A stretch of DNA of 64,000 nucleotides from assembly GCF_000472965.1 (NCBI RefSeq), contig NZ_AXAU01000002.1, positions 602,751 to 666,750 of the forward strand, in the 5' to 3' direction. Below the pieces are notes generated by a model. That model made no database searches. It worked only from the letters and a program-made list of their open reading frames with translations, and was not told the DNA's origin. The position numbers were made by a program, and so were the translations under genes. This document shows positions 4,727 through 22,268 of this stretch, piece after piece; the stretch's first letter is position 1; the number at the start of each line of letters is the position of its first letter. The stretch is from Bradyrhizobium murdochi (GTDB lineage Bacteria; Pseudomonadota; Alphaproteobacteria; Rhizobiales; Xanthobacteraceae).

Positions 4727-5554
4727 ATGAGCAAGGCTCTCGCCGTCTTCCACGGCCGGTTCGGTCGCGCGACGGTCTATCAGTTGAACCGCCCCTTCAA
4801 CATGCACGCGCATCGCGAAGGGCACCTGATTTTTCATGTCGGTGGAACGCCAGCCCGCATTGATGTGTGCGACGAGCGATGGCTGCTTGCCGAAGACTCC
4901 ATTATTGCCGTCAACCCCTGGGAACCACACAATTTTGTCCCGACGGACATGGAGAACGGGGCGATCTTCTTCGTGCTTTACGTCAACGCCGAATGGTTCG
5001 CCCCCGACGCGGCCCGCGTCCATAGCCTGCGGTTCGGCCGCACCTGCTTCAAGCGTACGGCCACGCTCGACAGGCACATTCGCCGCTCTGCCGCGCTGGT
5101 GTGCGGCGCACCTTCGCTGAGCAGCCTCGACTGCGAACTCAGGCAATTGATCGACAGTTGTTATGACGAAAGCTGGCAGACGTCCGAGCCGGTGCAGGAG
5201 ACGCGCACCGCCACCGCCGTCACCGACTTTCGCGTCCGCAAATCCATCAAGCTGATGTCCGAAAGCCCGGGCGCCGAGATCGAGCTGGATTCGATCGCGC
5301 GGGCCTCCGGGCTGTCGCGCCCACACTTCTACCGGCTGTTCCGCACCCAGACCGGCGTGACGCCAAACCTCTATCTCAATACACTGATCATGGAACAAGC
5401 GCTGGACGCCCTGGTCGCGACCGAGGTGCCGATCGCCGATATCGGCTTCGATCTCGGCTTCTCCTCCCAGAGCGGTTTCACCCGCTTCTTCGCGGCCAAT
5501 GTCGGGATGGCGCCGACTGAATACCGCCGCGCCGCCAAAGTCTTGCGCCCCTGA
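4727..5554 (+). CDS. AraC family transcriptional regulator
   Basis: A 275-residue protein with an N-terminal cupin-like sensing half (NMHAHREGHLIFHVGG, a cupin beta-barrel pattern) and a C-terminal AraC double helix-turn-helix from about residue 170. The first helix-turn-helix is around IARASGLSRPHFYRLFRTQT and the second around IADIGFDLGFSSQSGFTRFF, followed by the usual P-x-x-Y-R end. It sits inside the importer operon, between the binding protein and the permeases, and probably activates the whole downstream block in response to the imported compound (inference). The start is supported by GGGAGGG upstream. Confidence 0.92.
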   Translation: MSKALAVFHGRFGRATVYQLNRPFNMHAHREGHLIFHVGGTPARIDVCDERWLLAEDSIIAVNPWEPHNFVPTDMENGAIFFVLYVNAEWFAPDAARVHSLRFGRTCFKRTATLDRHIRRSAALVCGAPSLSSLDCELRQLIDSCYDESWQTSEPVQETRTATAVTDFRVRKSIKLMSESPGAEIELDSIARASGLSRPHFYRLFRTQTGVTPNLYLNTLIMEQALDALVATEVPIADIGFDLGFSSQSGFTRFFAANVGMAPTEYRRAAKVLRP

Positions 5555-5659: not shown

Positions 5660-5686
5660 ATGGCGACGGCCGGGCTACTGCCGTGA
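5660..5686 (+). CDS. Possible 8-codon leader peptide coupled to the permease start
   Basis: ATG at 5660 is preceded by GGGAGGA and reads MATAGLLP, then TGA at 5684-5686, which overlaps the GTG start (5683) of the permease in a GTGA junction. The permease GTG itself has no clear ribosome site, so translation may be delivered by this mini-cistron. It could equally be chance. Confidence 0.4.
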   Translation: MATAGLLP

Positions 5687-6693
5687 CACGATTCATCGAG
5701 CGCCATCCGGCATGGGCGCTGATCGCACTGGTCGCGATCGCGCTGCTGCTGTGGCTGATCCTCGCCGTCTGGCCGCCCGGCCTTGAAGAGACAATCGGCA
5801 GAAAGCGGGTCTTTCTCAATGCCGTCTTCAACGGCATCACGCTCGGCAGCCTCTACTTTCTGGTGGCAAGCGGCTTCACCCTGATCTTCGGCCTGATGCG
5901 CAACGTCAATCTGGCGCATGGCTCGCTTTATCTGTTCGGCGGCTACATCGGTTACGCCATCAGCGCCTGGACCGGTTCCTGGATCCTCGGCTTCATCATC
6001 GCATTTTTCGGTGTGGCGCTGGTCGGCATCGTCCTGCAGATCGTCGTCTTTCGCCGCATGGAAGGGCAGGATCTGCGCCAGACCATGGTCACGATCGGTC
6101 TCTCGATCGTGTTTGCCGATCTGATGCTGTGGGCCTTCGGTGGTGACTTCTATCAGATCCAGACGCCGAGCTGGCTGGTCGGCCCGATCGAATTGCCGCT
6201 GGTCACCGCGGTCAGATCGTCGGGTGAGGCGGTCTATTTGCGTTATCCGCTGGTGCGGCTCGTGATCCTGGTCGCGGCGATCGTGATCGGCATCGCGATG
6301 TGGCTGGCGCTCAACCGAACCCGCGTCGGCATGATGGTGCGCGCCGGCGTCGATGACCGCGACATGCTGGCAGCGACCGGCGTGCCGATCCAGCTCGTCT
6401 TCGTTGCCGTGTTCGCGCTTGGCGCCGGCCTCGCCGGCATCGCGGGCGTCGTCGGCGGAACCTTTCAGTCGCTTTCGCCCGGCGAAGATACCCGCTTTCT
6501 GCTGGCTTCCCTCGTCGTCGTCATTGTCGGCGGTATGGGATCGATCCCGGGCGCGGCGCTGGGCGCCGTCATCATCGGCCTCGCCGAGCAGCTCGGCTCC
6601 GTCTACATCCCGACTTATGCAATCGTCGTGACCTTCCTGATCATGGTGCTGGTGCTGGCGCTGCGGCCGCAGGGCCTCCTTGCGAGGCGCTGA
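5683..6693 (+). CDS. ABC transporter permease, LivH type
   Basis: A 336-residue inner-membrane permease. Hydrophobic helices begin at WALIALVAIALLLWLILAV. The LivH-family stretch LGSLYFLVASGFTLIFGLMR followed by NLAHGSLYLFGGYIGY is clear, and the EAA-like loop lies around GMMVRAGVDDRDMLAATGVP. The start is a GTG; the frame has no better start upstream. It carries one N-terminal helix more than minimal LivH proteins. It partners the LivM-like permease 1 bp downstream, the two ATPases and the binding protein at 3337-4587 for import of an unidentified compound. Confidence 0.9.
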   Translation: MTRFIERHPAWALIALVAIALLLWLILAVWPPGLEETIGRKRVFLNAVFNGITLGSLYFLVASGFTLIFGLMRNVNLAHGSLYLFGGYIGYAISAWTGSWILGFIIAFFGVALVGIVLQIVVFRRMEGQDLRQTMVTIGLSIVFADLMLWAFGGDFYQIQTPSWLVGPIELPLVTAVRSSGEAVYLRYPLVRLVILVAAIVIGIAMWLALNRTRVGMMVRAGVDDRDMLAATGVPIQLVFVAVFALGAGLAGIAGVVGGTFQSLSPGEDTRFLLASLVVVIVGGMGSIPGAALGAVIIGLAEQLGSVYIPTYAIVVTFLIMVLVLALRPQGLLARR

Positions 6694-6694
6694 C

Positions 6695-7777
6695 ATGTCG
6701 CTGCTCCAGGGCGCCCATCCTCAGACCAGTCAGCCGGCAGAAGCGCGCGCGGCGTTGTTGGCATGGCCGGAATTCAACAAGCCGGCTGTCTGGCTGGTGG
6801 CCGTGATCCTCTTGATCATGCCGTTCATCGCCAACGGCTTCTTCCTCATCGAGATCTTTGCCACGACGCTGATCCTCGGGACCGTCGCACTCAGCCTGAT
6901 GTTCCTGGCGGGCTATGGCGGCATGGTCAGCCTGATGCAACTCACCGTCGCCGGCTTTGCCGCTTACATGGTCGCGGTGTTCGGCATGAGCGCCAACACC
7001 AATATCAGCCTCGGCTGGCCGTGGTGGCTCGCTACGCCGATGGCGCTCATTCTAGCCACGGTCTTCGGCACGCTCGGTGGCGCGCTCGCGGTGCGCACCG
7101 AGGGCATCTACACCATCATGATCACGCTCGCGATCGGCGCGGCCTTCTACTATTTCACCAATCAGAACTGGCCGATCTTCGGCGGCCACACCGGGATCAA
7201 CACCATCGCCACGCCGCGTTTCTGGGGCATCGACTGGCGCTCCGATATTCCCTTCTATTACGTCACGCTGGGCGTCGCGGCATTCTGCTACTTCGCCGTT
7301 CAATATGTCTCGCGCGCGCCGTTCGGCCTCGCGCTGCAGGGCGTGCGCGACAATCCCCGCCGCATGGCCGCACTCGGCTTCAACGTCAACGCGCACCGCG
7401 TGGCAGCCTACGCCTTCGCGGCCTTCATCGCTGCACTCGGCGGCGTGTTGCAGGTCTGGAACTACCGGCAGATTTCGCCCGGCTCGGTCAGCGTCGGCGC
7501 CTGCATCGACATCCTGATCATCGCCGTGGTCGGTGGCATCACCCGCCCCATCGGGCCCTTCATCGGCGCCTTCATCTTCGTCATCCTGCGGACCTTCGCG
7601 CTCGATCTATTGGTCAAGCTCGGGCTCGACGGCAACCGCTTCCGGCTGCTGATCGGCCTCGGCTTCCTCGCCATCGTGTTCTGGTCGTCGGATGGCGTGA
7701 TCGGTCTCTGGGAGCGGTGGCGCCGCGGCGCGGCGGCCGTCGATAAACGCGCGGGCGGAGGCCACGGCCATGGATAG
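6695..7777 (+). CDS. ABC transporter permease, LivM type
   Basis: A 360-residue inner-membrane permease beginning MSLLQGAHPQ, one base after the LivH stop. It contains the LivM-typical segment SLMFLAGYGGMVSLMQLTVAG and the cytoplasmic coupling loop GLALQGVRDNPRRMAALGFN, then VVGGITRPIGPFIGAFIF near the end. The C-terminal tail is Gly- and His-rich. It overlaps the LivG-like ATPase by 8 bp, so the pair is coupled. Together with 5683-6693 it should form the transmembrane channel of the importer. Confidence 0.92.
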   Translation: MSLLQGAHPQTSQPAEARAALLAWPEFNKPAVWLVAVILLIMPFIANGFFLIEIFATTLILGTVALSLMFLAGYGGMVSLMQLTVAGFAAYMVAVFGMSANTNISLGWPWWLATPMALILATVFGTLGGALAVRTEGIYTIMITLAIGAAFYYFTNQNWPIFGGHTGINTIATPRFWGIDWRSDIPFYYVTLGVAAFCYFAVQYVSRAPFGLALQGVRDNPRRMAALGFNVNAHRVAAYAFAAFIAALGGVLQVWNYRQISPGSVSVGACIDILIIAVVGGITRPIGPFIGAFIFVILRTFALDLLVKLGLDGNRFRLLIGLGFLAIVFWSSDGVIGLWERWRRGAAAVDKRAGGGHGHG

Positions 7778-8552
7778 CACCGCGCCACGCTTTTCGGCTG
7801 TCGGCGCCGGCGCCGCGCTGGAACTGCGCGGCGTGACGCGGCTGTTCGGCGCGCTCGCGGCGCTGACCGACGTCACCATTACCGTTCGTCCGGGCGAACG
7901 CCGCGCCGTGCTCGGCTCCAACGGCGCCGGCAAAACGACACTGTTCAATTGCGTGACCGGGGACTTTCCGCCGTCCTCCGGCACCATCCGCTTCTTCGGC
8001 GAGGACATTACCCACTTCCCGCCTTACGAGCGTATCAGGCGCGGCTTGCGCCGCACGTACCAGATATCGGCGCTGTTCCCCGGCCTTACGGTGAGGGACA
8101 ACATCTATCTCGCCTGCCGCGGCGTTTCTCGCGGACGGTTTTCTCCGCTGCGCCCGGGGGCGAACGATGCCCTCATGCATGCGACAGAGGCGCTGATCCA
8201 GGCGGTGCACCTGACACCCCTGAGGGAGCAGCGCGTCGCGGAACTCGCGCATGGCCAGCAGCGGCAGCTCGAGATCGCACTCGCGCTCGCCGGCGCGCCG
8301 CGCTTCATCCTGTTCGACGAACCGGCCGCGGGCCTGTCACCCACCGAGCGGCGCGAACTGATCGATATCCTGACGTCGCTACCCGCCCATATCGGCTACA
8401 TCATCATCGAGCACGACATGGATGTCGCGCTTCGCGTCGTCGAGAGCGTCACGATGATGCACAACGGCCGTGTCTTCAAGGAAGGCCTGCCGCACGAGAT
8501 CGAAGCCGACCCGGAGGTGCAGGAACTCTATCTGGGGGCCGGCCATGAGTGA
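7770..8552 (+). CDS. ABC transporter ATP-binding protein, LivG type
   Basis: A 260-residue ATPase. Walker [11 protein letters not shown]-loop region [14 protein letters not shown], a signature variant [12 protein letters not shown] and Walker [14 protein letters not shown] are all present, with H-loop IEHDMD. The histidine-containing signature resembles urea/amide-type LivG relatives rather than classic LSYGEQ. It overlaps both neighbours by 8 bp. It powers import with the LivF domain encoded next. Confidence 0.93.
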
Positions 8553-10779
8553 TTTCAGCCGTTCAGCACCTGCCCTCGAAGTCCGGGGCCTCGACGTTTA
8601 CTACGGCCACTCCCATGCGCTGCAGGGCGTCGAGCTGACGCTGGATTCCGGCGTGTTCTCGGTGGTCGGCCGCAACGGCATGGGCAAGACCACGCTGTGC
8701 AAGACCATCATGGGCTTGCTGCGGGCGAGCGGCGGTTCGGTGCGCGTCCGCGGCGAGGACATCACCCGCCTCAGCCCGGCCCGGATCGCGCAAGCAGGCG
8801 TCGGCTACGTTCCGCAAGGGCGACGGCTGTGGCGCTCGCTCAGCGTGGACGAACATCTGCGGCTGGCGGCCGGGATGCGGCGCGGCGTCTGGACCATCGA
8901 TCGCATCTACGAGACGTTTCCCCGCCTTGCCGAACGCAGGGATCACGGTGGCGGTCAGCTCTCCGGCGGCGAACAGCAGATGCTGGCGATCTCGCGCGCG
9001 CTTCTGACCAATCCGCATCTCCTCATCATGGACGAGCCGACCGAAGGCCTCGCCCCTGTCATCGTCGCCCAGGTCGAGGAAATGCTGGTGCGGCTTGCCG
9101 AAGACGGCGAGATGTCGGTGCTGGTGATCGAGCAGAATATCGGCGTCGCCACGGCGATTTCGAAGAACGTCGCGATCATGGTCAATGGCCGCATCAATCG
9201 CATCATCGATTCCGCGCGCCTTGCCGCCGACCGCGAGTTGCAGCAACGGCTGCTTGGTGTTGGTGTCGTTGGTGTTCACGCCGAGCTGGAAACGGATATC
9301 GAAGCTATCGATGCGAGCGCGGAGAAGACGCGTCCCTCCCCGCCGCGCGCCCCGAGCACGGCACCAATCCGGATCTATATCTCCAATCCCACGCTGCCGA
9401 CGCGCTGGTCGCAGCCGGCACCGATTGCGCGCATCGAGGCCGCCGCGCGGACGCTTTCGACGGGCATTCCCCGGATCGAAGACGTCGCACGGCAGAAACG
9501 CCAAGCCGGTGCCGTCGCTCAAACCGCGTCCGGGCCACCGGTCGTGCTCGTCGTCGGCACCCTCGATACCAAGGGCGAGGAGCTGCGCTTCATCCGCGAC
9601 GTAATCGCCGGTCATGATTTGCGGACGCGCCTGGTCGACGTGTCCACCAGCGGCAAGCTCTCCACCTGCGACGTCTCCGCCCAGGAGATCGCGCTCAACC
9701 ATGGGCGCGGCGGTTCGAGCGTGTTCGGCTCCGATCGCGGCGCCTCGGTGACGGCGATGGCCGATGCCTTCGCCAATTGGCTGCGCCGTCAAGGCAATGT
9801 CGCAGGCATTATTTCAGCCGGCGGCTCCGGCGGCGCCTCGCTGGTTGCGCCGGGCATGCGTAGCCTTCCTGTTGGCGTACCGAAACTCATCATCTCATCC
9901 GTCGCATCGGGAGATGTCGGCCCTTATGTCGGACCTGCCGATATCGCGATGATGTATTCGGTCACCGACGTGCAGGGGCTTAACTCGATCTCGCGTGCCG
10001 TGCTCGCCAATGGCGCCAACGCCATCGCCGGCATGGTGAAGGCGCGTCTCGACAATCAAAGTGCGGCCGAGCGTAATGCACGGGTTGCGTTGCCCGCTGT
10101 CGGCATCACCATGTTCGGCGTGACGACACCGGCCGTGCAGAAGATCGCGGCCGATCTGCGCAGCGATTTCGAATGCCTCGTCTTCCATGCTACCGGCGTC
10201 GGTGGCCGCTCCATGGAAAAGCTGGTCGATTCCGGAATGCTCGCAGCCGTCGTCGATCTCACGACGACGGAAGTCTGCGATCTCCTGATGGGCGGCGTAT
10301 TCCCGGCAACCGACGACCGCTTTGGCGCGATCATCCGCAGCCGCGTCCCCTTCATCGGCTCGGTCGGCGCGCTCGACATGGTCAATTTCGGCGCGCCCGA
10401 CAGCATTCCCGAACGCTACCGCCAGCGCAAATTCCACGTTCACAATCCGCAGGTGACCTTGATGCGCACCACGCCGGAAGAGAACGACCGCATCGGCCGC
10501 TGGATCGGCGAAAGACTCAACCGGATGGACGGGTCGGTGCGCTTCTTCCTGCCGGAAGGCGGTGTCTCCGCGCTCGATGCGCCGGGTCAGCCGTTCTGGG
10601 ATCCGGAAGCCGACGCGGCGCTGTTTACAGCGCTGGAACGCAGCGTGCGCCAGACCGGCAACCGCCAGCTCATCCGCATCAGGCGCCACATCAACGAACC
10701 CGAATTTGCATCCGCCATCGTCAACGCGCTCCGTCCTCTGGTCGGACGCCCGGGGACACGTCGGAAAGTCGCGAGGTGA
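8545..10779 (+). CDS. Fusion: LivF-type ABC ATPase + Tm-1-like (UPF0261) domain
   Basis: A 744-residue two-part protein. Residues about 8-240 are a LivF ATPase (Walker [10 protein letters not shown] near 42, signature LSGGEQQM, Walker [14 protein letters not shown]). Residues about 250-330 form a Pro/Arg/Ala-rich linker. From residue 332 ([15 protein letters not shown]) to the end lies a UPF0261/Tm-1-like ATP-binding domain, with motifs such as [27 protein letters not shown]-like strands and [14 protein letters not shown]. LivF proteins normally end near 240 residues, so this is a genuine fusion in one unbroken frame. The next gene, 2 bp downstream, is the TIM-barrel partner found fused to UPF0261 in plant Tm-1 proteins. 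The role of the Tm-1-like half is unknown. Confidence 0.9.
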
Positions 10780-10781
10780 CC

Positions 10782-11615
10782 ATGGCGAAGTTCGAACGTT
10801 CAGCCATTCTGAAGAAGTTTCGCAACATGGCCGCCAAGGGCGAGCCGATCGTCGGCGGCGGCGCGGGCACCGGCCTATCGGCCAAATGCGAGGAAGCCGG
10901 CGGCGTCGACCTGATCGTGATCTACAATTCCGGCCGCTACCGCATGGCCGGCCGCGGCTCTCTCGCCGGCCTGATGCCCTATGGTGACGCCAACGCGATC
11001 GTGTTGGAGATGGCCGGCGAAGTGCTCCCCGTCGTCACCCGGACGCCGGTACTGGCCGGCGTCAACGGCACCGACCCGTTCCGCGACATGGACAGTTTTC
11101 TCGATCAGTTGAAGGCGCTGGGCTTTGCCGGCGTGCAGAATTTTCCGACCGTCGGCCTGATCGACGGCGTATTCCGTGCCAATCTCGAGGAAACCGGAAT
11201 GTCCTATGCGCTGGAGATCGACATGATCGCCAAGGCGCGCGACAAGGACATGCTGACGACGCCCTATGTGTTCAGCGAAAGCGAAGCCGCGGCAATGGCG
11301 ATCGCGGGTGCCGACATCATCGTCTGCCATCTCGGCCTGACCACCGGCGGCGCGATCGGTGCGCATACTGCGCCGAAGCTCGAAGACTGTCCGGAACAGA
11401 TCGACACCTGGGCGGCAGCCGCCCTCAGCGTCAATCCGGACATCTTGGTCCTGGCCCATGGCGGCCCGATCGCCGAGCCCGCCGACGCCGACTTCATCAT
11501 GAAACACACGCGCAAGTGCCACGGCTTCTACGGCGCCTCCTCGATGGAGCGCCTGCCGGTGGAGCGGGCGCTGACGGAACAGGTTCGCAAATTCAAGGCG
11601 ATCGGCGCGCGGTAA
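10782..11615 (+). CDS. TIM-barrel protein of the phosphoenolpyruvate hydrolase-like family (Tm-1 C-terminal half)
   Basis: A 277-residue single-domain TIM barrel. Barrel strands with Gly-rich phosphate-type loops are visible at [47 protein letters not shown] and [13 protein letters not shown], and the C-terminus has [14 protein letters not shown]. This is the family attached C-terminally to UPF0261 in Tm-1 proteins. Here it is a separate gene 2 bp after the UPF0261-bearing fusion, so the two products very likely work together. The enzymatic reaction is unproven despite the family name. Confidence 0.85.
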
Positions 11616-11638: not shown

Positions 11639-14548
11639 ATGTCGGGGACTCTGGTTGGCGAATTGATCCTCTGGCTGATCGTCGCGATCGTCGTGATCGC
11701 CGTCGTCGTCTATGTCGTGAACTGGCTCTACCACCGATCGTCGAAGGAAGTCTCCTTCGTCCGCACCGGTCTCTTGGGCGAGCGCGTGGTGATCAATGGC
11801 GGTGCCTTCGTGCTGCCGTTCATTCACGACTACACGCCCGTCAACATGAACGTGCTGCCGATGGGCATCGTGCGGGCCAAGCATGACGCGGTGATTACCC
11901 GCGACCGCATGCGGATCGACATCGAGGCCGATTTTTACGTCCGCGTGCAGCCGACCCGTGAAGCCGTCGCGATCGCCGCTGCTACGCTCGGGCGGCGCAC
12001 GCTCGAGCCGGGGCAGTTGCACGCCCTGCTTTCCGGCAAGTTTGTTTCCGCCATACGGTCAGTGGCCGCCGAAATGACAATGGAGCAGATGCACGAGCAG
12101 CGCGGCGAGTATGTCGCCCGCGTCAAGGCCGCCGCCGCCGAAGCGCTGGCCCAGAACGGGCTTGAGCTCGAATCGGTCGCCATCACCGATCTCGACCAGA
12201 CCGACCTCGAATATTTCAATCCGTCGAACCGCTTCGACGCCGAGGGCCTCACCCGGCTGATGGAGGACATCGAAGCCAAGCGCAAGCTGCGCAACGATAT
12301 CGAGCAGGATTCGATGATCAAGATCCGCGCTCGCAACCTCGATGCCGAGCGGCAGGCATTGGAGATCGAGCGCGAGAGCGAGACCGCCCGCCTCGAACAA
12401 GAACGCGACATCGAGATGCGCCGGGCGCTGCAGCGCACCGAGGTGGCGCGCGAGCGCGCGTTGCGCGAGACCGAGGCCGAGCAGGCGCAGATCGCCGCCC
12501 GCGAGGCAATCGAAAAGGCACGTATCGCCAATGAGCTCGCCATCGCCGAAGCCCGCATCGCCTCCGAGCGCGAAACAAGGCACCGCGAGATCGAGCGCAC
12601 GCGAGCGGTCGAGGAAAAGGAATTGCTGGCGCGCGAGGAAATCGAAAAGGCCAAGATCGCCAATCAACGCGCGGTCGATACCGCCCGCATTGCTTCCGAG
12701 CGGGAGGTGCGGCAGCGCGACATCGAGCGCACACGGTCCGTCGAGGAAGCCGAGATCACGGCACGCGAAGCGATCGAGAAGGCGCGCATCCAGCAGGACC
12801 GCGCCGTCACCGACGCGCGGATCGCCAACGAGGAAGAAACCCGAAGGCGCGAAATCGAGCGCACCCGCGCGGTCGAAGAAGCCGAGATCGCGGCGCGCGA
12901 GGCAACCGAAAAGGCCCGCATCGCCCAGACCACGATCGTCAACCTCGAACGCATTGCGTCTGACGAACGCACCCGCGCGCTGGAGATTGCGCAGATTCGT
13001 ACCATCCAGGAGGCTGAGATCGAGGCGCAAAAGGCCGTGGAAGCCGCGCGGATCGCCCGCGAGCGTACCCTGGCCGCCGAGCGGATCAGCTCCGAGCACG
13101 CCACGCGCAAGCTCGAAATCGAGCGCAACCAGGCGCTGGAAGTCGCAGGTATCTCGGCGCGAGAGGCAACCGAAGCCTCGCGCATCGCGCAGGAGGAGCG
13201 CGTTCGCTCGCTCGAAATTGCGCGCAACCGCGCCGTCGAGGAGGCCGATATCGCCTCGCGCGAAGCGATCGAGGCCGCCCGCATCTCCCAGGAGAAGGTC
13301 GTCGCCGCGCAGCGTATTCGGGCCGAACGAGAAACAAGGGGTCTCGAGATCGAGCGTACCGAAGCCATCGAAGCTGCCGAACTCAAGCGGCGTGACGTCA
13401 TCGAGCGGCGCCGCGTCGAGGTCGAGCTGGCGCTCGAAGCCGAACGTATCGCTTCGTCCAGGACCCGAGAGGTGCTCAATATCGATCAGAAGAAGGCAGT
13501 CGAGATTGCCGACGAGGAGCGCGTGATTGCGCTGGCCGCCAAGCGCTCCGAGCGCATCGACGCTGATCGCCAGGTCAAGCAGGCCGAGATCAACGCGCGC
13601 AAGGAAGTCGAGACCACCGACGTCTCGCGTGAACAGGCGCTGGAGGCCGCCCGGCTCGCTCGCCGGCGCGCGATCGAGCAGCTCGAAGTCGGCCGTGTCC
13701 AGGCGCTGCAGGAAGCCGAGATTGCTTCCCGCGAGGAAGTCGAGCGGGCGCGCATCGCCGCCGACCGCGGCCTCGATGAAGCCCGTATCGGCCGCGAGCG
13801 GGACTTGCGGAAACTCGAGGTCAACCGCGAGAAGGACGTCGAAACGGCGCTGATGGAAAAGGCGATCGCCCTTTATCAGAAATCGCTGGAAGAATCCGCC
13901 GCCAAGGTGGCTGCCGAGGATGCGCGGGTACGCGCGACCGAAGCGGCCGAGCGCGTCGTCACCGCCCGCGAAAGCGAGATCGCCAAACGACAAAAGACCG
14001 TCGAGGTGCTGCTGGCGGAGAAGCGGGCGGAGGAGACCCGTATCGCCGCCGACGCCGAGCGCGTGCGCGCCGCGGTCGAAGCCGAGGCGCAGCGGTTGCT
14101 CAACGAAGCGGAGAACGTGCTCACCGACCAGGCGCGTTACTCGCTGTTCCGCCGCAAGCTGCTCGACCGGATCGAGGGCATCGTGCGCGAGAGCGTCAAG
14201 CCGATGGAGAAGATCGAGGGTATCCGCATCCTTCAGGTGGACGGCCTCAATGGCGCCGGCGGCGGCAATGGTGCCGGCCGCAGCGCCACCGACGAGGTGA
14301 TCGACTCGGCGCTGCGCTACCGCGTGCAGGCGCCGCTGATCGACTCGATCCTTTCCGACATCGGTGTCGAGGGCGGCAGCCTCGCCAGGATGCCAGGCCT
14401 GATCCGCGAGGCGCGCGACATGCAGGGCATCAGGGATTCCGCGCGTAAAGGCGGCCAAGGGAAGCTTGAAGGCAAGCCCGACGCACCGCCTGCGGTCCCC
14501 GGCCCCGGCGAACCCGCTCCTGAACGCGGACCACGCAAGAAAGGGTGA
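11639..14548 (+). CDS. Large SPFH/flotillin-like membrane protein with hendecad coiled-coil repeats
   Basis: A 969-residue protein starting at the ATG after GGGAGGAAGAG. Residues about 8-30 are one transmembrane helix (ILWLIVAIVVIAVVVYVV). Residues about 36-215 are an SPFH domain (VRTGLLGERVVINGGAFVLP, then DFYVRVQPTREAV). Residues 273 to about 730 are a very charged coiled coil with 44-residue repeats, typically EIERTRAVEEAEI then AREAIEKARIA. A C-terminal globular part follows (LDRIEGIVRESVKPMEKIEG, as in flotillin ends), then a Pro/Gly/Lys tail. Flotillins are about 430-700 residues, so the coil is greatly expanded. It probably oligomerises as a membrane scaffold. Its position between transporter and molybdenum hydroxylase genes suggests it organises that enzyme at the membrane (inference). 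Confidence 0.88.
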   Translation: MSGTLVGELILWLIVAIVVIAVVVYVVNWLYHRSSKEVSFVRTGLLGERVVINGGAFVLPFIHDYTPVNMNVLPMGIVRAKHDAVITRDRMRIDIEADFYVRVQPTREAVAIAAATLGRRTLEPGQLHALLSGKFVSAIRSVAAEMTMEQMHEQRGEYVARVKAAAAEALAQNGLELESVAITDLDQTDLEYFNPSNRFDAEGLTRLMEDIEAKRKLRNDIEQDSMIKIRARNLDAERQALEIERESETARLEQERDIEMRRALQRTEVARERALRETEAEQAQIAAREAIEKARIANELAIAEARIASERETRHREIERTRAVEEKELLAREEIEKAKIANQRAVDTARIASEREVRQRDIERTRSVEEAEITAREAIEKARIQQDRAVTDARIANEEETRRREIERTRAVEEAEIAAREATEKARIAQTTIVNLERIASDERTRALEIAQIRTIQEAEIEAQKAVEAARIARERTLAAERISSEHATRKLEIERNQALEVAGISAREATEASRIAQEERVRSLEIARNRAVEEADIASREAIEAARISQEKVVAAQRIRAERETRGLEIERTEAIEAAELKRRDVIERRRVEVELALEAERIASSRTREVLNIDQKKAVEIADEERVIALAAKRSERIDADRQVKQAEINARKEVETTDVSREQALEAARLARRRAIEQLEVGRVQALQEAEIASREEVERARIAADRGLDEARIGRERDLRKLEVNREKDVETALMEKAIALYQKSLEESAAKVAAEDARVRATEAAERVVTARESEIAKRQKTVEVLLAEKRAEETRIAADAERVRAAVEAEAQRLLNEAENVLTDQARYSLFRRKLLDRIEGIVRESVKPMEKIEGIRILQVDGLNGAGGGNGAGRSATDEVIDSALRYRVQAPLIDSILSDIGVEGGSLARMPGLIREARDMQGIRDSARKGGQGKLEGKPDAPPAVPGPGEPAPERGPRKKG
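12455..13480 (+). repeat. 132-bp coding repeats (44 residues = four 11-residue hendecads)
   Basis: In-frame units begin at codons 12455, 12587, 12719 and 12851 (residues 273, 317, 361, 405), exactly 132 bp apart. They continue to residue 449, and then through a 33-residue unit (493) to 526 and 570. Each unit opens with an EIER-type sequence and ends in a basic ERETR-type sequence. A multiple of 11 residues indicates a hendecad coil rather than a heptad coil. Confidence 0.8.
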
Positions 14549-14557
14549 GAGCACGCC

Positions 14558-14995
14558 ATGGCCCGCGTCTACGTCTCCACTGTCGTCAACGCCCGCAACG
14601 ACCGCGTCTGGGCGCGGGTGCGCGACTTCAACGGGTTGCCGAACTGGCATCCTGCGATTGCGGAAAGCCGCATCGAGGGCGGCGAGCCCGCGGACAAGAT
14701 CGGATGCGTGCGGGATTTTCGCCTGCGCAACGGCGATCGTATCCGCGAAAAACTGCTCGGGCTCTCCGACTACGACATGTTCTGCACCTACTCCATCCTG
14801 GAGTCCCCGATGGGCGTGGAGAACTACGTTGCAACGCTGCGGCTGACGCCCGTGACCGACGGCGACCAGACTTTTCTGGAATGGACTGCCGAGTTCGACT
14901 GCGCGCCCGAGCGTGAGAACGAGCTCGTCAGCAACATCGGCGGAGGTGTGTTCCAGGGCGGATTCGACGCGCTCAAGCGCGCCTTCGGAGGCTAG
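14558..14995 (+). CDS. SRPBCC family protein, CoxG-like (first of a tandem pair)
   Basis: A 145-residue single-domain SRPBCC (START-like) protein: VYVSTVVNARNDRVWARVRD, then NWHPAI and a KIGCVRDFRL strand, ending in a long C-terminal helix (GGFDALKRAFGG). It is related to the next gene, sharing the DFNG...WHP, ADKIGCVR and PVTDGD positions. SRPBCC proteins bind hydrophobic ligands; CoxG, a family member in CO dehydrogenase clusters, links the enzyme to the membrane. Unlike CoxG it has no C-terminal membrane helix, so membrane contact might come from the SPFH protein encoded just upstream (inference). Confidence 0.85.
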   Translation: MARVYVSTVVNARNDRVWARVRDFNGLPNWHPAIAESRIEGGEPADKIGCVRDFRLRNGDRIREKLLGLSDYDMFCTYSILESPMGVENYVATLRLTPVTDGDQTFLEWTAEFDCAPERENELVSNIGGGVFQGGFDALKRAFGG

Positions 14996-14996
14996 C

Positions 14997-15440
14997 GTGC
15001 CGCATATCGTCAAAAGCACGATCCTCGACGCGCCGACAACCGCGGTCTGGAATGTGCTGCGCGATTTCAACGGCCACGACCGCTGGCATCCTGAGGTCGC
15101 CACCAGCACGATCGAGCGCGCACAGGCCGCTGACAAGATCGGCTGCGTGCGCCGCTTCAAGCTGCAGGACGGCTCGGAGCTGCGCGAACAGTTGCTCGCT
15201 TTGTCCGACCTCGAACAGACCTTCAGCTATTGCCTGCTCGATACGCCGATCCCGATGTTCAACTATGTCGCCCATGTCCGCCTGCTGCCCGTCACCGACG
15301 GCGACCGCACCTTCTGGCATTGGGAATCCAGGTTCACCACGCGGCCTGCCGATGCCGAGCGGCTGACGCAAATGGTCGCGGAACAGATCTATCAAGCCGG
15401 CTTCGACGCCATTCGAAGGCACCTGAAGGAGGCCGCATGA
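14997..15440 (+). CDS. SRPBCC family protein, CoxG-like (second of the tandem pair)
   Basis: A 147-residue paralogue of the preceding protein, starting at a GTG one base after that gene's stop (PHIVKSTILDAPTTAVWNVL). Shared landmarks are RDFNGHDRWHPEV, ADKIGCVRRF, PVTDGDRTFW and a closing amphipathic helix. The upstream in-frame extension to 14913 would run through the neighbour's coding end and is not used. Duplication of SRPBCC genes beside a molybdenum hydroxylase may reflect a heterodimeric hydrophobic carrier, for example for a quinone electron acceptor (inference). Confidence 0.85.
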   Translation: MPHIVKSTILDAPTTAVWNVLRDFNGHDRWHPEVATSTIERAQAADKIGCVRRFKLQDGSELREQLLALSDLEQTFSYCLLDTPIPMFNYVAHVRLLPVTDGDRTFWHWESRFTTRPADAERLTQMVAEQIYQAGFDAIRRHLKEAA

Positions 15441-15456: not shown

Positions 15457-16275
15457 ATGCCCGTCACGGTGAAGACATTTGCGAATTTTGGCGAGGCGGC
15501 GTCGGCGTTATCGTCGGACCGTAGCGCGCGCTATCTCGGCGGCGGCACGCTCGTCATGCGCGCCCTCAACGAGGGCGATGTCTCGATCTCCACCGTCGTG
15601 CGCGCGAACGACCTGGCGCTAACTCGCATCGACGTCGCAAGCTCGCGCGTCACGATCGGCGCCGGCGTCACCTTTGGGAGAATTCTGGCCGAGCGCGACC
15701 TCGCCTTTCTGCACGCGCCGGCGCGCTCGATCGGCGGGCCGGCCGTGCGCAACATGGGTACGGTGGGCGGCAATCTGTTCGCGCCCAGCCCCTACGGAGA
15801 CTTCACCGTCGCCCTGCTGGCGCTCGACGCGACAGTCTCCGTCCAGGGCGGTCTTGGCGCCCGCGACATGCCAATCGAGGAGTTCCTGCAATCTCGCGAA
15901 CGGCAGAGCGGCGCGCTGGTGCTGGCGGTCGCGTGTCAGCGGCCTGCAAGTGCCGACGCCTTCCGCTATCGCAAGATCGCCCGCATCAAGCCGAAGGGCG
16001 GTTCGGTGATCACGCTGGCGGCGCACCTGCCTTCGAGCGGTGGCCGCATTTCTGGTGCGCGCATCGCGCTCGGCTCGATGGCCGCGACGCAAATTCGTGC
16101 AAGGGCCGCCGAGCGGGCGCTGGAGGGACGCGCGCTTGACGATGCGGCGATCAACGCTGCTGCGGCGGTAGCCGCCGAAGGCGTGTCACCCACAGATAAT
16201 GCCCTTGGCAGCGCCTGGTATCGCCGCGAGATCGTCGGCGTTCATCTTCGCCGCCTGCTGTCCGGCCTGGAGTAA
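15457..16275 (+). CDS. Molybdenum hydroxylase FAD-binding (medium) subunit, CoxM-like
   Basis: A 272-residue flavoprotein of the xanthine dehydrogenase FAD family. The FAD-binding signatures YLGGGTLVMRALN and GPAVRNMGTVGGNLF followed by APSPYGDFTVALLAL are clear, and the C-terminal CO_deh_flav_C-type domain follows FRYRKIARIKPKGGSVITLA. It transfers electrons from the 2Fe-2S subunit to FAD and then an acceptor. FAD, 2Fe-2S and Mo subunit genes follow one another in the cox order M-S-L with gaps of 6-11 bp. Confidence 0.92.
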   Translation: MPVTVKTFANFGEAASALSSDRSARYLGGGTLVMRALNEGDVSISTVVRANDLALTRIDVASSRVTIGAGVTFGRILAERDLAFLHAPARSIGGPAVRNMGTVGGNLFAPSPYGDFTVALLALDATVSVQGGLGARDMPIEEFLQSRERQSGALVLAVACQRPASADAFRYRKIARIKPKGGSVITLAAHLPSSGGRISGARIALGSMAATQIRARAAERALEGRALDDAAINAAAAVAAEGVSPTDNALGSAWYRREIVGVHLRRLLSGLE

Positions 16276-16281
16276 GCCTTC

Positions 16282-16761
16282 ATGACTAAGACCCCACTCC
16301 AGTTTCGCCACAACGGCCGCGATGTCGCGGTGTTCGTCGATGGCGGCGTCAATCTCTTGGTCGCGCTTCGCGAACTGATCGGCGACATGACGCCAAAATT
16401 CGGCTGCGGCCAGGGCGGCTGCGGCGCCTGCAGCGTGCTGATTGACGGCGAGTTGCATCTCTCCTGCCTGACGCTGGCGGAAGCCGTGAACGGCCGCGCC
16501 GTCGAAACGCTCGACGGGCTAAAGGACGGGCCCAACCTTCATCCGCTGCAGCGCGCCTTCATGGAGCAGTTCGCAGCCCAGTGCGGCTACTGCACGCCGG
16601 GCATGCTGATGGCCGCCAAGTCGCTGCTCGATCGCAATCCGTCGCCGAGCCGCGCTGAGGTCATCGAGGCGATCTCCGGCAATATCTGCCGCTGCACCGG
16701 CTACGAGCCGATCATTAACGCCGTGCTCGCCGCCGCATCGAGCGGGCGGGCCCGCGCCTAA
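16282..16761 (+). CDS. Molybdenum hydroxylase 2Fe-2S (small) subunit, CoxS-like
   Basis: A 159-residue protein with both 2Fe-2S motifs of the family: the plant-ferredoxin-type FGCGQGGCGACSVLIDGE and the C-terminal four-helix cluster QCGYCTPGMLMAAKSLL with NICRCTGYEPI. All eight cysteines expected from this family are present. It relays electrons between the Mo-pterin site and the FAD subunit. The start ATG lies 6 bp after the FAD-subunit stop. Confidence 0.95.
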   Translation: MTKTPLQFRHNGRDVAVFVDGGVNLLVALRELIGDMTPKFGCGQGGCGACSVLIDGELHLSCLTLAEAVNGRAVETLDGLKDGPNLHPLQRAFMEQFAAQCGYCTPGMLMAAKSLLDRNPSPSRAEVIEAISGNICRCTGYEPIINAVLAAASSGRARA

Positions 16762-16772
16762 AGGAAACCACC

Positions 16773-18350
16773 ATGCTGGAACTGCGCAAGGACATCTTCG
16801 CCGACGAGCGCGACGATAATTTGAAAGAGATCGGGAAAGGCACCCAGCGCCAGGACATGCTCGGCCATGTCACGGGCACTTCGACCTATTTCGACGACCA
16901 TAAGCTGCAGGGCATGCTGCATCTGAAAGTGCTGCGCAGCCCGCACGCCCATGCCCGCTTACGCCGTATCGATACGATGGAAGCGGAACGTTCGCCCGGC
17001 GTTCGCCGCATCATCCGCGGGGCCGACGTGCCGCGCAATCTCAATACGCTGCTCAGCCTGATCAATTTCGGCAAGGACGACGAGCCGTCGCTCGCGGTCG
17101 ACAAGGTGCGCTACAAGGGCGAGCCGATCGTCGCCATTGTCGCCGACAGCCCGCGCGAAGCCTACGAGGCAATGGCGAAAGTGCGCGTCGACTACGAGCC
17201 GCTGCCGGCGGTGTTCGACGTCGAGGAGGCGCTGAAGCCGGGTGCGCTCGTCGTCAACGAGACCTATCCCAAGAACACCTTCATCTATCACGACGTCTAC
17301 GATCACCAAAAGCTGCGCTTCGGCGACGTCGAGCGCGGCTTTGCCGAGGCCGATCATGTGCTCGAACAGCGCTACCAGATGTCGCCGATCGAGCATGCGC
17401 CGACCGAGACCAACGGCTCGATCGCAGCTCCCGACACCAACGGCCGCTATGTCGTCTACACCTCAACGCAGGCGCTGTTCTTCTCGCTCGACACCTGCGC
17501 CAAAATCCTCGACGTACCCTCCAACACGTTCCACTTCATCGGCGGCACCGTCGGCGGCGGATTCGGCGGCAAGGTGGATACGCTGACCGAGCCGCTCGCC
17601 ATTCTCGGCGCGATGCTGACAGGGCGGCCGGTACGCTATCAGCTCGGCCGCGAAGAGGAGATGCAATTCGGCTCGCCGCGCGGCGCCGAACGCATCTACA
17701 TCAAGGACGGCGTGATGCGCGACGGCCGCATCGTCGCGCGCAAGATCCGCGCCTATTTCGACAGCGGCGCCTATACAAGGCTTTCGAGCTACGCCGTCGT
17801 CAAATGCGTGGCCCACCTGCCCGGCCCTTACACGATCCCGAACGTCCACGGTGACGTGTATTGCGTATTCACCAACCGGACGCCTGCTACCGCCATGCGC
17901 GGTTTCGGCGTCACGGCAATGGACTTTGCGCTCGAATGCCAGATGGACAAGCTCGCACATCTTGTCGGCATCGACCCGATGGAGTTCCGCATCCTCAACG
18001 CCTATCGCGACGGCGACATGAAGGCGCACCGGCGCGAGGCCAAGAACACCGCACTGATCGAATGCGCCCAGGTCGCCGCCGAGAAAGCAAAATGGCCGCT
18101 GCGCGAAGAGGTCAAGCGGATGTCCTCGCGCAAGGATGGCGGCGGCAGCCGGGCGGCAATATCGCCGACGCCGATCGAGCCTGCCCCACAACGTGCTGCG
18201 GTCTCACAGCAGCGGACCACATACGATCGCGCGCCTCCTGCACCGATCCACGAACCGCCGCCTCCCGCACCGCCCCCTCCTCCAAGGCCGCAGTCGCCGT
18301 CACACGGCGCGACCCGCTTCTCCTCCGTCTTCGGCACCAGGAGGCGCTGA
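16773..18350 (+). CDS. Molybdenum hydroxylase Mo-binding subunit, N-terminal half with proline-rich tail
   Basis: A 525-residue protein corresponding to the first part of a CoxL/XdhA large subunit: hammerhead domain (RQDMLGHVTGTSTYFDDH), then Mo-pterin domain 1 with GGTVGGGFGGKVDTL near residue 258 and the TPATAMRGFG loop. Family homology ends near residue 449. Residues 450-525 are low-complexity and Pro-rich (PPPPAPPPPPRP around 498). The active-site Glu region is missing here and is encoded by the next gene, so neither half can be complete alone. The loop is not the AYRCSFR of CO dehydrogenase, so this is another hydroxylase. Confidence 0.88.
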   Translation: MLELRKDIFADERDDNLKEIGKGTQRQDMLGHVTGTSTYFDDHKLQGMLHLKVLRSPHAHARLRRIDTMEAERSPGVRRIIRGADVPRNLNTLLSLINFGKDDEPSLAVDKVRYKGEPIVAIVADSPREAYEAMAKVRVDYEPLPAVFDVEEALKPGALVVNETYPKNTFIYHDVYDHQKLRFGDVERGFAEADHVLEQRYQMSPIEHAPTETNGSIAAPDTNGRYVVYTSTQALFFSLDTCAKILDVPSNTFHFIGGTVGGGFGGKVDTLTEPLAILGAMLTGRPVRYQLGREEEMQFGSPRGAERIYIKDGVMRDGRIVARKIRAYFDSGAYTRLSSYAVVKCVAHLPGPYTIPNVHGDVYCVFTNRTPATAMRGFGVTAMDFALECQMDKLAHLVGIDPMEFRILNAYRDGDMKAHRREAKNTALIECAQVAAEKAKWPLREEVKRMSSRKDGGGSRAAISPTPIEPAPQRAAVSQQRTTYDRAPPAPIHEPPPPAPPPPPRPQSPSHGATRFSSVFGTRRR

Positions 18351-18352
18351 CC

Positions 18353-19375
18353 ATGGCAAAACATCGCGGACGCGGCATCGCTTCGATCAACTATCCGATC
18401 GGCATGAACCTTGGCGGAGACCCCAGCCAGGCGCTGGTGCATTCCAACCCCAGCGGCAAGTTCACGGTGTCGCTGTCATCAATCGACCTCGGCCAGGGCA
18501 TGAAATCGGTGACGCGGCAGATCTGCGCGGAGACGCTCGGCGTGCCGGTCGAGGACGTCTATGTCGATACCGCGGACTCCGACACCGGACCGCACTGCAT
18601 GGGCTCGTTCGCCTCGCGCGGCACGCATCGGGTCGGCAATGCGGTGATGGCGGCGGCGAAAGAGGCGCGCGGCGTCATGATGGAAGCCGCTGCGGAGGAA
18701 TTGGAGGTCAATGCCGCCGATCTCGAGACCGACGGGCGCGGCAACATCCACGTCAAGGGTGCGCCGCACCGCTCGATCTCCACCAAGGATGTCGCGATTG
18801 CCGCGCAGTTCAAGCAAGGCAAGACGATCTCAGGCCGCGGCATCTTTCTGGTGCCGCTGTCGGAGGTGAACCCTGAGACCGGCGAGATGTCGCCTGCGAC
18901 TTGCTATGCGCACGCCTGCCTGGTCGCGGAGGTTGAGGTTGACGACGAGACCGGCGAGGTCGCGATGGTGCGCATGGACAGTGCATACGAGCTCGGCCGC
19001 GCGCTCAATCCACGGCTGGTGGAGCAGCAGCTCGTCGGCGGCGCGTGGATGGGGATCAGCCACGCGCTGTTTGAAACACCCGAACCCTATTATCCCGACC
19101 CGACGCATGGTCCGCGCGATTTCGTTGAATATCTGATGCCCGGCCCCGGCGACACCTGTCCGCACGATATCGCGGTGCTGGAACGCCCTGCGGCCGACGG
19201 GCCGTTCGGCGCCAAGGGTCCCGGCGAGATGTGCGCCAACCCGGTGCTGCCCGCGGTCGCCAACGCCATCTTCAACGCGGTCGGCGTGCGGATGGATGAA
19301 CTGCCGATCACACCGGAGAAAGTCTTGCGGGCGATCAAGGCGCAGGGCGGTGCGCGGCCGCAAGCGAGGCGCTGA
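18353..19375 (+). CDS. Molybdenum hydroxylase Mo-binding subunit, C-terminal half
   Basis: A 340-residue protein covering Mo-pterin domain 2: KHRGRGIASINYPIG, SSIDLGQGMKSVTRQICAET, GSFASRGTHRVGNAV and the active-site strand AKGPGEMCANPVLPAVANAI with the expected catalytic Glu. It has its own ATG with CAGGAGG upstream, 2 bp after the N-half stop and in a different frame. Nicotinate dehydrogenase of Eubacterium barkeri has the same two-piece Mo subunit (NdhL/NdhM), so a heterodimeric subunit is plausible. Substrate unknown; N-heterocycles or aromatic aldehydes are typical for the family. Confidence 0.9.
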   Translation: MAKHRGRGIASINYPIGMNLGGDPSQALVHSNPSGKFTVSLSSIDLGQGMKSVTRQICAETLGVPVEDVYVDTADSDTGPHCMGSFASRGTHRVGNAVMAAAKEARGVMMEAAAEELEVNAADLETDGRGNIHVKGAPHRSISTKDVAIAAQFKQGKTISGRGIFLVPLSEVNPETGEMSPATCYAHACLVAEVEVDDETGEVAMVRMDSAYELGRALNPRLVEQQLVGGAWMGISHALFETPEPYYPDPTHGPRDFVEYLMPGPGDTCPHDIAVLERPAADGPFGAKGPGEMCANPVLPAVANAIFNAVGVRMDELPITPEKVLRAIKAQGGARPQARR

Positions 19376-20266: not shown

Positions 20267-21381
20267 GCGACGAACTTCGACTGCCACGTGCTGCCGGCGT
20301 CTTCGTGTCCTTTGTCGCTCTATTGCGCGCCAACGGTTTTGCCGTGGCGCCGGAACAGACGACTACATTCCTGGCTGCCATCGAGTTGCTGGGTCCGCGC
20401 AGCCTCGAAGCCATTCGGCAGGCCGGATTGGCAACGCTCGCGCCGCCGCCCGAGCGGCGCGCGACCTACGATCGGCTGTTCGATATCCATTTCCTCGGCA
20501 GCGAAGCGGTCGACCATGCCGGCGCCGAAGATGAGGAAGTGGTTCGCCTGCAGGAGGAAGGTCGCGGCGAGGATGAAACACTGCTCGCCGATGAAGCCAA
20601 CGAGTCGGGGCTTGCCGCGGCCCGCGCGGAGGCGCTGGTCGAACGCCGCTTCGCGCCGAGCGCGACCGGCGATGTCTTGCGAAGACTGTCACGCGAAGCC
20701 CCTGCCCGATTACCGCGACGCCGCGGCCACCGGCGCAGGCGCGCCCGCCGCGGGCCGTGGGCGGATCTTCGCCGTACCTTGCGCGACAGCGTGCGCAACG
20801 ATGGCGAGGTGCTGCGGCTCGGACGGCTGAAGCGGCGCACCCGTCCGCGCAAGGTGCTGCTCTTGATCGACGTCTCGGGTTCGATGAAAGGGCGCACGGA
20901 CGACAATATGAAGCTCGCCCATGCCGTGGTGCATGCGGCTCCCAACGTCGAGGTATTCACTTTCGGCACAAGGCTTACCCGCGTGACGCGCGCGCTCCGT
21001 CTCAAGCGCCGCGAGCAGGCGCTGTTCGCCGCAGCGCATCTGGTCAGCGATTGGGACGGCGGCACCCGCATCGGCGATGCGCTGCAGGCGTTCCTGGCGG
21101 TACCGCGGTTCGGCAGCTATGCGCGTGGCTCCGCCGTCGTCATCCTCTCCGACGGCCTCGAACGTGGCGATCCCTCGGCGCTACGCGACGCGGTGGCAAA
21201 GCTATCGCGGCGCGCCTGGCGCCTGAGCTGGCTGACGCCGCTGGCGTCAGGCCCCGGCTTTCAGCCGCAGACCGAAGCGCTGATCGCGATCCGCCGTTTC
21301 GTGGATGATCTGGCCGATGGCGGATCCACGGCTGCGATCGTTTCGCATGTACTCTCGCTTGGACAAAGGAAGGCAGCGTGA
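20263..21381 (+). CDS. VWA domain protein, CoxE-like
   Basis: A 372-residue protein with a C-terminal von Willebrand factor A domain. The MIDAS motif is in LLLIDVSGSMKG and the later metal-coordinating segments are WDGGTRIGDAL and VILSDGLERGD. The N-terminal half is charged and ends in a strongly basic RLPRRRGHRRRRARRG-type stretch. GTG start overlaps the MoxR stop. MoxR/VWA pairs act as metal-insertion or chaperone modules. Its own stop overlaps the next gene in another GTGA junction. Confidence 0.9.
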   Translation: MSDELRLPRAAGVFVSFVALLRANGFAVAPEQTTTFLAAIELLGPRSLEAIRQAGLATLAPPPERRATYDRLFDIHFLGSEAVDHAGAEDEEVVRLQEEGRGEDETLLADEANESGLAAARAEALVERRFAPSATGDVLRRLSREAPARLPRRRGHRRRRARRGPWADLRRTLRDSVRNDGEVLRLGRLKRRTRPRKVLLLIDVSGSMKGRTDDNMKLAHAVVHAAPNVEVFTFGTRLTRVTRALRLKRREQALFAAAHLVSDWDGGTRIGDALQAFLAVPRFGSYARGSAVVILSDGLERGDPSALRDAVAKLSRRAWRLSWLTPLASGPGFQPQTEALIAIRRFVDDLADGGSTAAIVSHVLSLGQRKAA

Positions 21382-22268
21382 CCGAAATCGTCGATGCCCA
21401 TCACCACATCTGGCGTCAGGCCGACCTGCCCTGGCTCATCGGCCCGATGCAGCCGCGGATCTTCGGCCCCTACGAGCCGATCAGGCGCGACTATCCGATC
21501 CAGGAATATCTCGCTGACCTCGCAGGTTCCGGCGTAACGCGTTCCGTCTATGTGCAGACCAATTGGGCCAACGATCGCTTCGAGGACGAAACCGCCTGGG
21601 TGCAGCAGACGGCGAAGGACCATGGCTGGCCACACGCCATCGTCTCCTATGCCGATTTCAACGTCGATGACGTCCGTCCGCAACTTGATCGTCTCGCGCG
21701 CTATCCCCTTGTGCGGGGCGTGCGCATGCAACTGCACTGGCACGACAACCCCCTCTATCGTTTTGCGGCGCGGCCCGACCTCTGCGCCGATCCCAAGATC
21801 CGGCGCAACATCGCGCGGCTCGCCGACTACGCCTTCAGCTTCGATCTGCAGGTGTTTGCGCCGCAGATGGCCGGTGCCGCGGAGCTCGCCGAAGCGTGCC
21901 CTGATGTGACCTTCATCCTGCAGCACGCCGGCATGCTGGAAGACCTCTCGCCGCAAGGCCGATCCGCCTGGCGCACTGGGATGACCCGCCTCGCAGCCTG
22001 TCCGAACATCGTCTCAAAGCTTTCCGGGCTCGGCACCTTCATCCATCGCAACGACCCGTCGCATATCGCCGAAGTCCTCACAGAGACGGTCGCAATCTTC
22101 GGTGCCGACCGCTGCCTGTTCGGCTCCAATTTTCCGATTGAGAAACTTTGGACGACTTATCGCGAACTGATCGACGCCTATCTCGCCGCAACGGCCTCGC
22201 TTCGCGCCGATCAACGCGATGCCATTCTGAGAACGACGGCCGCGCGCGTCTATCGGCTGGGAGCGTGA
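21378..22268 (+). CDS. Amidohydrolase-2 family metal-dependent hydrolase (lactonase-like)
   Basis: A 296-residue TIM-barrel hydrolase of the COG3618 type. The N-terminal metal motif VDAHHHIWR is followed by LPWLIGPM; further ligands are expected at RMQLHWH, FILQHAG and FGSNFPIEKL. The family includes 2-pyrone-4,6-dicarboxylate hydrolase (LigI) and sugar-acid lactonases, so ring-opening of a lactone is the likeliest chemistry. GTG start is coupled to the VWA gene. It belongs to a run of three different predicted ring- or amide-cleaving hydrolases after the hydroxylase. Confidence 0.87.
   Translation: MTEIVDAHHHIWRQADLPWLIGPMQPRIFGPYEPIRRDYPIQEYLADLAGSGVTRSVYVQTNWANDRFEDETAWVQQTAKDHGWPHAIVSYADFNVDDVRPQLDRLARYPLVRGVRMQLHWHDNPLYRFAARPDLCADPKIRRNIARLADYAFSFDLQVFAPQMAGAAELAEACPDVTFILQHAGMLEDLSPQGRSAWRTGMTRLAACPNIVSKLSGLGTFIHRNDPSHIAEVLTETVAIFGADRCLFGSNFPIEKLWTTYRELIDAYLAATASLRADQRDAILRTTAARVYRLGA

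Follow-up and report, generated by a model that had tools for sequence, protein, structure and literature searches.

In a 64,000-nucleotide stretch of DNA from Bradyrhizobium murdochi, hereafter the window, a gene encoding a giant flotillin-like protein is found between those of an importer and those of a molybdenum hydroxylase. The locus raises a twofold question, namely what sets the length of so long a coil and what a flotillin may be doing in a metabolic operon. Regarding the former, no account of what sets the height of a flotillin barrel was found in the literature consulted, some articles of which are cited in part, as marked below. As reported here, the length of the flotillin coil is quantised in steps of 11 residues, which provides a simple and testable principle for the height of SPFH cages, and the operon points to a definite pathway in which a bacterial flotillin may act.

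Domain organisation of the giant flotillin

The gene occupies positions 11639..14548 of the forward strand (969 amino acids plus stop). From the N-terminus onwards, the product exhibits (i) a hydrophobic membrane helix (residues 1-34, 11639..11740), apparent from the sequence and modelled as a helix at residues 3-34 in both AlphaFold models, (ii) an SPFH/Band_7 head (residues 42-193, 11762..12217; Pfam PF01145, E 1.5e-17, 64.6 bits against a cut-off of 23.6), (iii) a long coil predicted to be helical by low-confidence AlphaFold models (residues ~208-827, 12260..14119), and (iv) the flotillin C-terminal domain, or cap (residues 793-910, 14015..14368; PF15975, E 7.3e-38, 129.9 bits against a cut-off of 27), all on the forward strand. 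Judging from its sequence, this SPFH2-type protein is a complete flotillin, with membrane helix, SPFH head, coil and C-terminal domain. An earlier note on the same DNA had overlooked the PF15975 domain.

An orthologue of giant size is present in 26 of 35 genomes of the same genus. The genome of the window itself has eight Band_7 places, the giant counted, among which one other is an ordinary flotillin of 589 amino acids (locus L127), of the YqiK type. This paralog resembles the giant in its head, its cap and its adherence to the modulo-11 rule described below, and differs from it in size, in the length of its coil and in its neighbours, namely YqiJ and a PspA-family gene.

The AlphaFold monomers of the giant are weak (mean pLDDT 64 and 62) and the helix is interrupted near residues 418-453. 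At low confidence, one model places helices at 208-417 and 447-827, and the other at 201-255, 266-430, 454-702 and 711-825; in the former model, the pLDDT is under 50 across much of the head. With a query of such low confidence, the structure search placed chains of solved flotillin complexes at ranks 1, 2, 5 and 6, the TM-scores being low (0.15 to the query). A search of PDB sequences with the giant returned just two weak coil matches, and a profile built from ordinary flotillins retrieved flotillin-1.

Periodicity of the coil

Over residues 241-790, the period of the residues A, I, L, V, M and F peaks at 3.66 (power 13.4; 0 of 1000 shuffles as strong), with a power of 0.5 at period 3.5 and 0.0 at 3.6, i.e., hydrophobic residues are spaced as in hendecads (11/3) and not as in heptads (7/2). 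Taken alone, residues 621-790 show no significant periodicity, as strong a signal being reached in 501 of 1000 shuffles. The self-identity of the coil (residues 241-790) at a shift of 44 residues amounts to 0.36, where 1000 shuffled sequences, each scored at its best shift between 5 and 250, did not exceed 0.206, and multiples of 11 account for all ten of the best self-match shifts as well as for 15 of the best 20. A heptad coil is ruled out by the peak at 3.66, the near absence of power at 3.5 and the predominance of shifts that are multiples of 11.

Tandem units of 44 residues (4 x 11) extend from residue 272 to ~612 (12452..13474, forward strand), as seen both from the self-match and from the 132-bp period reported by TRF. 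The best-matching units begin at residues 272, 316, 360, 404, 448, 525 and 569, the spacing being irregular once, with a step of 77 between 448 and 525. From residue 272 to 602, every best unit offset is divisible by 11, and between 638 and 693 division by 11 leaves 3, which corresponds to a single +3 slip of the hendecad phase at residues ~613-638 (13475..13552, forward strand); beyond this slip, a further 44-residue unit match occurs at residue 682. Within residues 261-622, Ile fills position 3 of the 11-mer in 28 of 33 cases, Val, Ile or Thr fill position 9 in as many (28 of 33), Ala is found at positions 1, 4 and 8 in 15-17 of 33, and positions 2, 6, 7 and 10 are mostly charged. The underlying 132-bp DNA array is a degenerate one, for which TRF reports 3.2 copies in 12489-12916 (69%) and 1.8 copies in 12715-12954 (76%).

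On these points, the earlier note proved right about the open reading frame and its coordinates, about the SPFH membrane head (Band_7, residues 42-193, E 1.5e-17), about the 44-residue repeat and about hendecads in place of heptads, the heptad spacing that would have spoken against it not being observed. Its coil of about 450 residues stands as regards the hendecad basis, the length being in fact nearer 600 residues (helix 201-852 or 208-827, interrupted by gaps, in the low-confidence models).

Length of the coil among flotillins

To compare lengths, the span was defined as the number of residues between two anchors, one where the head ends and one at the cap, both outside the repeats and located by profile HMM. 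Two sets of spans were used, the first comprising 73 flotillin ORFs and the second the same 73 with a second anchor pair plus 20 more, i.e., 93. Part of the hits were fetched as regions, namely 12 chosen ones, 20 from a class search that hit 51 genomes, 40 from searches at order and phylum level that hit 61 and 18 genomes, and 20 from a PF15975 search that hit 29. All measured ORFs were retained in both sets; short loci duplicating genes already included were omitted (L131-L158, L179, L180 and L221-L224).

In the set of 93 (second anchor pair), spans range 2.5-fold, from 400 to 1008 residues, and fall almost entirely into two classes modulo 11, namely class 4 (47 spans) and class 7 (45 spans), with a single one in class 10, so that the top two classes hold 92 of 93. 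When the 27 distinct spans are considered, the top two classes hold 26 for modulus 11 versus 10 for modulus 7. Phylogenetic dependence was dealt with by pairing tips that differ in span and whose paths share no common branch, in a tree of head plus cap: in 18 of 20 such independent pairs the difference is divisible by 11, where 1.8 are expected (binomial p 2.9e-17), and the two exceptional pairs differ by 36 and 124 residues, i.e., by multiples of 11 plus 3. As just three of the 20 pairs differ by multiples of 44, the unit of length change is 11 residues.

Ordinary flotillins follow the same steps, with spans of 400, 411, 422, 433 and 444, and the rule is thus not special to the giant. Their mean hydrophobic spectrum (n 33) peaks weakly at 3.56 and lacks a sharp peak at 3.67; hendecad hydrophobic spacing alone therefore does not explain the rule in these proteins. 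With the first anchor pair, the span of the giant is 821, against 444 for its ordinary paralog.

Selection on the coil

The constraint on the coil was assessed in a Bradyrhizobium-type set, namely the best 80 of 272 confirmed loci, all but one of them titled Bradyrhizobium. Coding sequences were recovered from 77 of these best 80, four of which remained unmeasured owing to a varied anchor motif. The anchor distance is identical in 72 of the 73 measured loci, the remaining one having one more residue near the cap. Relative to the window gene (72 comparisons each), the median dN/dS is 0.090 for coil residues 241-620 and 0.094 for residues 621-790, as compared with 0.081 for the head and 0.046 for the cap part. 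As such, the coil is under purifying selection and not in neutral drift. The second outcome named by the earlier note as speaking against its view, a repeat number varying at random as in a neutral expansion, failed to appear as well: length differences come in steps of 11, with 18 of 20 independent pairs at exact multiples. The coil, with a dN/dS of about 0.09, keeps its span nearly everywhere in this set.

Content and conservation of the operon

The genes of the operon share the strand of the giant, i.e., the forward strand, and are separated by gaps that are mostly short or absent. Ahead of the giant are found a periplasmic substrate-binding protein of a LIV-type ABC importer (3274..4587; Peripla_BP_6), an AraC-family regulator (4727..5554), two LIV-type permeases and an ABC ATPase (5683..8552), a second ABC ATPase fused to UPF0261 (8545..10779; ABC_tran, UPF0261 and UPF0261_C) and, directly upstream, a PF09370 "phosphoenolpyruvate hydrolase-like" protein (10776..11615; E 1e-130). 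Behind it come two SRPBCC proteins (14558..15440, at 14558-14995 and 14997-15440; Polyketide_cyc2, PF10604), the molybdenum hydroxylase block (15457..19375), a MoxR/CoxD-like AAA+ ATPase (19385-20266; AAA_5), a CoxE-like VWA protein (20263-21381; VWA_CoxE) and, by domain matches, an amidohydrolase, a metallo-beta-lactamase-fold protein and an SMP30-isochorismatase fusion (21378..24767). The hydroxylase is composed of an FAD subunit (15457-16275), a 2Fe-2S subunit (16282-16761) and a large subunit encoded by two genes (16773-18350 and 18353-19375), a split found in 42 of the 42 loci tested. A CO dehydrogenase operon was considered and rejected, the two halves of the large subunit scoring 165 and 111 bits against a TIGR02416 cut-off of 991.

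The earlier view that the giant sits in a metabolic operon instead of an NfeD context was borne out, no NfeD/YqiJ partner gene being present among the operon genes scanned by Pfam, whereas the ordinary flotillin of the same genome has one. Such a partner is usual and not obligatory, 17 genomes having been reported with SPFH2 and without NfeD2 (PMC2636767, in part).

Conservation was followed with 13 marker genes, namely seven core genes and six genes of the molybdenum hydroxylase, MoxR and CoxE, hereafter the module. All 13 are present in each of the 66 Bradyrhizobium loci that have both 10-kb flanks, among the best 80 of 272; contig ends truncate the remaining 14, of which 13 lack some marker. 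Among the 73 loci of the first span set, 37 have the module by a threshold of two genes (33 with six genes, three with five and one with two), and their spans (first anchor pair) are 744-1030. Five of them belong to the genus of the window and 32 do not, 25 of the latter holding all 13 markers. Another 27 of the 73 have core genes without the module, the spans being 433-725 in 25 of them (two or more core genes and not a single module gene), and nine are flotillins without the operon, with spans of 422-466. A long coil is found without module genes at locus L122 (span 953), where a 5.9-kb contig ends before the module position, and for locus L201, the one with a span of 725, the contig measures 7.5 kb and a module may lie further away. 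At locus L214, the span of 821 is kept after a real loss of the module, the best CoxL match elsewhere in that genome being 34% identical; the long coil is therefore not strictly tied to the enzyme, and a strict coupling of the two was rejected. In addition, all 37 module loci fall in one supported branch of 39 rows, along with L122 and L214, which is close to one evolutionary event and makes the association between span and module weak evidence. Across families, the gene order importer-UPF0261-PF09370-SPFH-SRPBCC is kept and the length of the coil varies.

Relation to known systems

Giant SPFH2b proteins were the subject of a 2009 paper by Hinderhofer et al. Flotillin-like proteins of 800-1000 amino acids with a strongly expanded coiled coil were described there, a size and a coil shared by the present protein of 969 amino acids (PMC2636767, in part). 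The terms hendecad, heptad, molybd and carbon monoxide have no occurrence in the main text of that article, and the 11-residue length rule and the operon with importer and molybdenum hydroxylase are, within the literature searched, new here. More generally, among the matches listed in searches of open-licence full texts on SPFH proteins and flotillins, none had the terms hendecad or 11-residue, nor was a report of a UPF0261/PF09370/SPFH/SRPBCC/CoxE operon seen in the titles and abstracts listed from the same literature; in passages of PMC7159879, SPFH occurs just in a reference title and CoxD-CoxE just as a general MoxR-vWA pair. The giant is thus a known kind of protein, whose 11-residue rule and conserved operon context were not found in print.

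The best structural match is the human flotillin-1/2 complex (9bq2, 9l3g), which shares the SPFH head, the long helix and the C-terminal cap, and whose wall is a right-handed, single-layered barrel of 44 side-by-side helices devoid of heptads (PMC11260169, in part). The human wall helix has 186 residues and its cage a height of 22 nm, whereas the helix of the giant would have ~600 (PMC11260169, in part). An analogy is also offered by HflK/HflC-FtsH, where SPFH cages enclose membrane AAA+ proteases (PMC11260169, in part), although HflK/HflC belong to the SPFH3 subfamily and face the periplasm (PMC2636767, in part). The cox cluster of Oligotropha carboxidovorans shares with the operon the subunits of a molybdenum hydroxylase, a CoxD-like AAA+ protein, a CoxE-like VWA protein and an SRPBCC-superfamily protein; there, CoxE is bound to the membrane, to which CoxG, a member of the SRPBCC superfamily, has been proposed to bring CO dehydrogenase (PMC4240915, in part). 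The present operon differs in its split large subunit, far under the CO dehydrogenase cut-off, and in its SPFH and importer genes.

A proposed barrel of adjustable height and its alternatives

The long helical stalk, the 11-residue steps and the conserved operon suggest a barrel of adjustable height that serves one metabolic pathway. On balance, we lean towards the giant flotillin forming a helical barrel seated on the membrane and delimiting a patch for the import and oxidation machinery of its operon. The SPFH heads would sit on the inner membrane, the straight coils would form the sides of a single-layered alpha-helical barrel with a slight right-handed course, and the flotillin C-terminal domain would close it. 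The large cage or palisade envisaged in the earlier note is, like this barrel, a prediction. Since 11 residues would make three helical turns (3.667 per turn), the same side faces would be presented all along a nearly straight helix; a gain or loss of 11 residues would then keep neighbouring helices in register, so that the height of the barrel could change only in steps of ~1.6 nm, which would be a direct reason for the length rule. With a rise of 0.15 nm per residue in an alpha-helix, the 377 residues by which the giant exceeds its ordinary paralog would add ~57 nm of helix. By analogy with HflK/C and CO dehydrogenase, the barrel would most probably set apart a membrane patch, together with the overlying space, where import and oxidation take place, the SRPBCC proteins, the molybdenum hydroxylase with its maturation pair and the importer being candidate occupants.

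The steps of 11 may instead have a mutational origin, i.e., recombination between 33-bp or 132-bp DNA repeats in a coil acting as a tolerant spacer, which appears unlikely. The 132-bp DNA period of the giant coil is in line with such an origin and, with an exact repeat of up to 37 bp at a multiple of 33 bp in locus L120, repeat-driven length mutation is possible in some giants. In the window gene, however, the longest exact repeat at 33-bp multiples is 15 bp (13 bp at other shifts), and in seven ordinary-length flotillins these repeats measure 7-13 bp and exceed those at other shifts in just one; with exact repeats so short, repeat-driven mutation alone does not easily explain the rule. Moreover, ordinary flotillins also step by 11 although six of the seven lack longer 33-bp repeats, and the coil evolves under a constraint similar to that of the head and with a fixed span in 72 of the 73 loci measured among the best 80 of 272. 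Neutral repeat expansion is therefore discarded as the leading account in view of the 11-residue steps of ordinary flotillins, the dN/dS of about 0.09 and the short exact repeats.

Turning to function, the giant could be a general scaffold of membrane microdomains, co-transcribed by chance and neither surrounding nor binding the proteins of the operon. This is rather doubtful, for the order of importer, UPF0261, PF09370, SPFH and SRPBCC genes is maintained across families and an ordinary flotillin accompanied by YqiJ is encoded separately in the genome, even though further groups have the core operon without the module and with shorter coils, and L214 retains the giant alone of the two. Very unlikely, in our view, is a tether or ruler, where a few parallel helices would hold a C-terminal binding domain ~90 nm off the membrane without any barrel wall: a helix of ~600 residues, as in the low-confidence models, and a coil length differing between families would suit it, but the flotillin cap domain is conserved and, in the human complex, 44 helices make up a barrel (PMC11260169, in part).

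Returning to the membrane-seated barrel, its boldest form would be a new bacterial compartment, namely a membrane-capped helical barrel ~80-100 nm tall, with height steps of 11 residues, enclosing a dedicated importer, the molybdenum hydroxylase and the AAA+/VWA maturation machine, which we hold to be quite unlikely. If the barrel and its register are right, an insertion of 11 residues should leave it intact and ~1.6 nm taller, and one of 4 to 7 residues should make it fail.

As for the neighbours of the giant, UPF0261 and PF09370 each resemble one half of the Tm-1 protein of tomato. In the module-less operons L163 and L207, the second SRPBCC protein is fused to a zinc alcohol dehydrogenase, and in L163 genes for an FAA hydrolase, an alpha/beta hydrolase and an amidohydrolase come after it.

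Gene fusions and gene splits in the operon and related loci

Within the window operon, two genes are of composite nature, namely a fusion of a LIV-type ABC ATPase with UPF0261 (8545-10779) and a single ORF carrying both SMP30/gluconolactonase and isochorismatase domains (23190-24767). The molybdenum hydroxylase large subunit occurs in a two-gene form (16773-19375), i.e., a MoCoBD_1 part and a MoCoBD_2 part, which are found on separate ORFs in all loci tested (42/42) and are set about 1 kb apart in several relatives, e.g., at L187, L189, and L191.

In sister operons devoid of the Mo-hydroxylase module (L163, 4038-8512; L207, 5326-6840), SRPBCC is fused to a zinc alcohol dehydrogenase, and at L163 this fusion is followed downstream by genes for an FAA hydrolase, an alpha/beta hydrolase, and an amidohydrolase. 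At another relative's locus, L214 (9750-15952), the module has been lost and the span between the head and cap anchors of the flotillin is retained at 821 residues; this flotillin sits on a long branch in the tree, and ORF tiling of the UPF0261-SPFH interval revealed no gene of PF09370 size.

Antisense frame and predicted helix break of the giant flotillin

Opposite the giant flotillin gene, a 1033-aa open frame runs on the minus strand (12059-15160); this frame is probably a shadow ORF produced by GC-rich codon usage. In both AlphaFold models of the giant, the helix is interrupted at residues about 418-453, where confidence is low, and this predicted break may correspond either to a hinge or to a modelling artefact.
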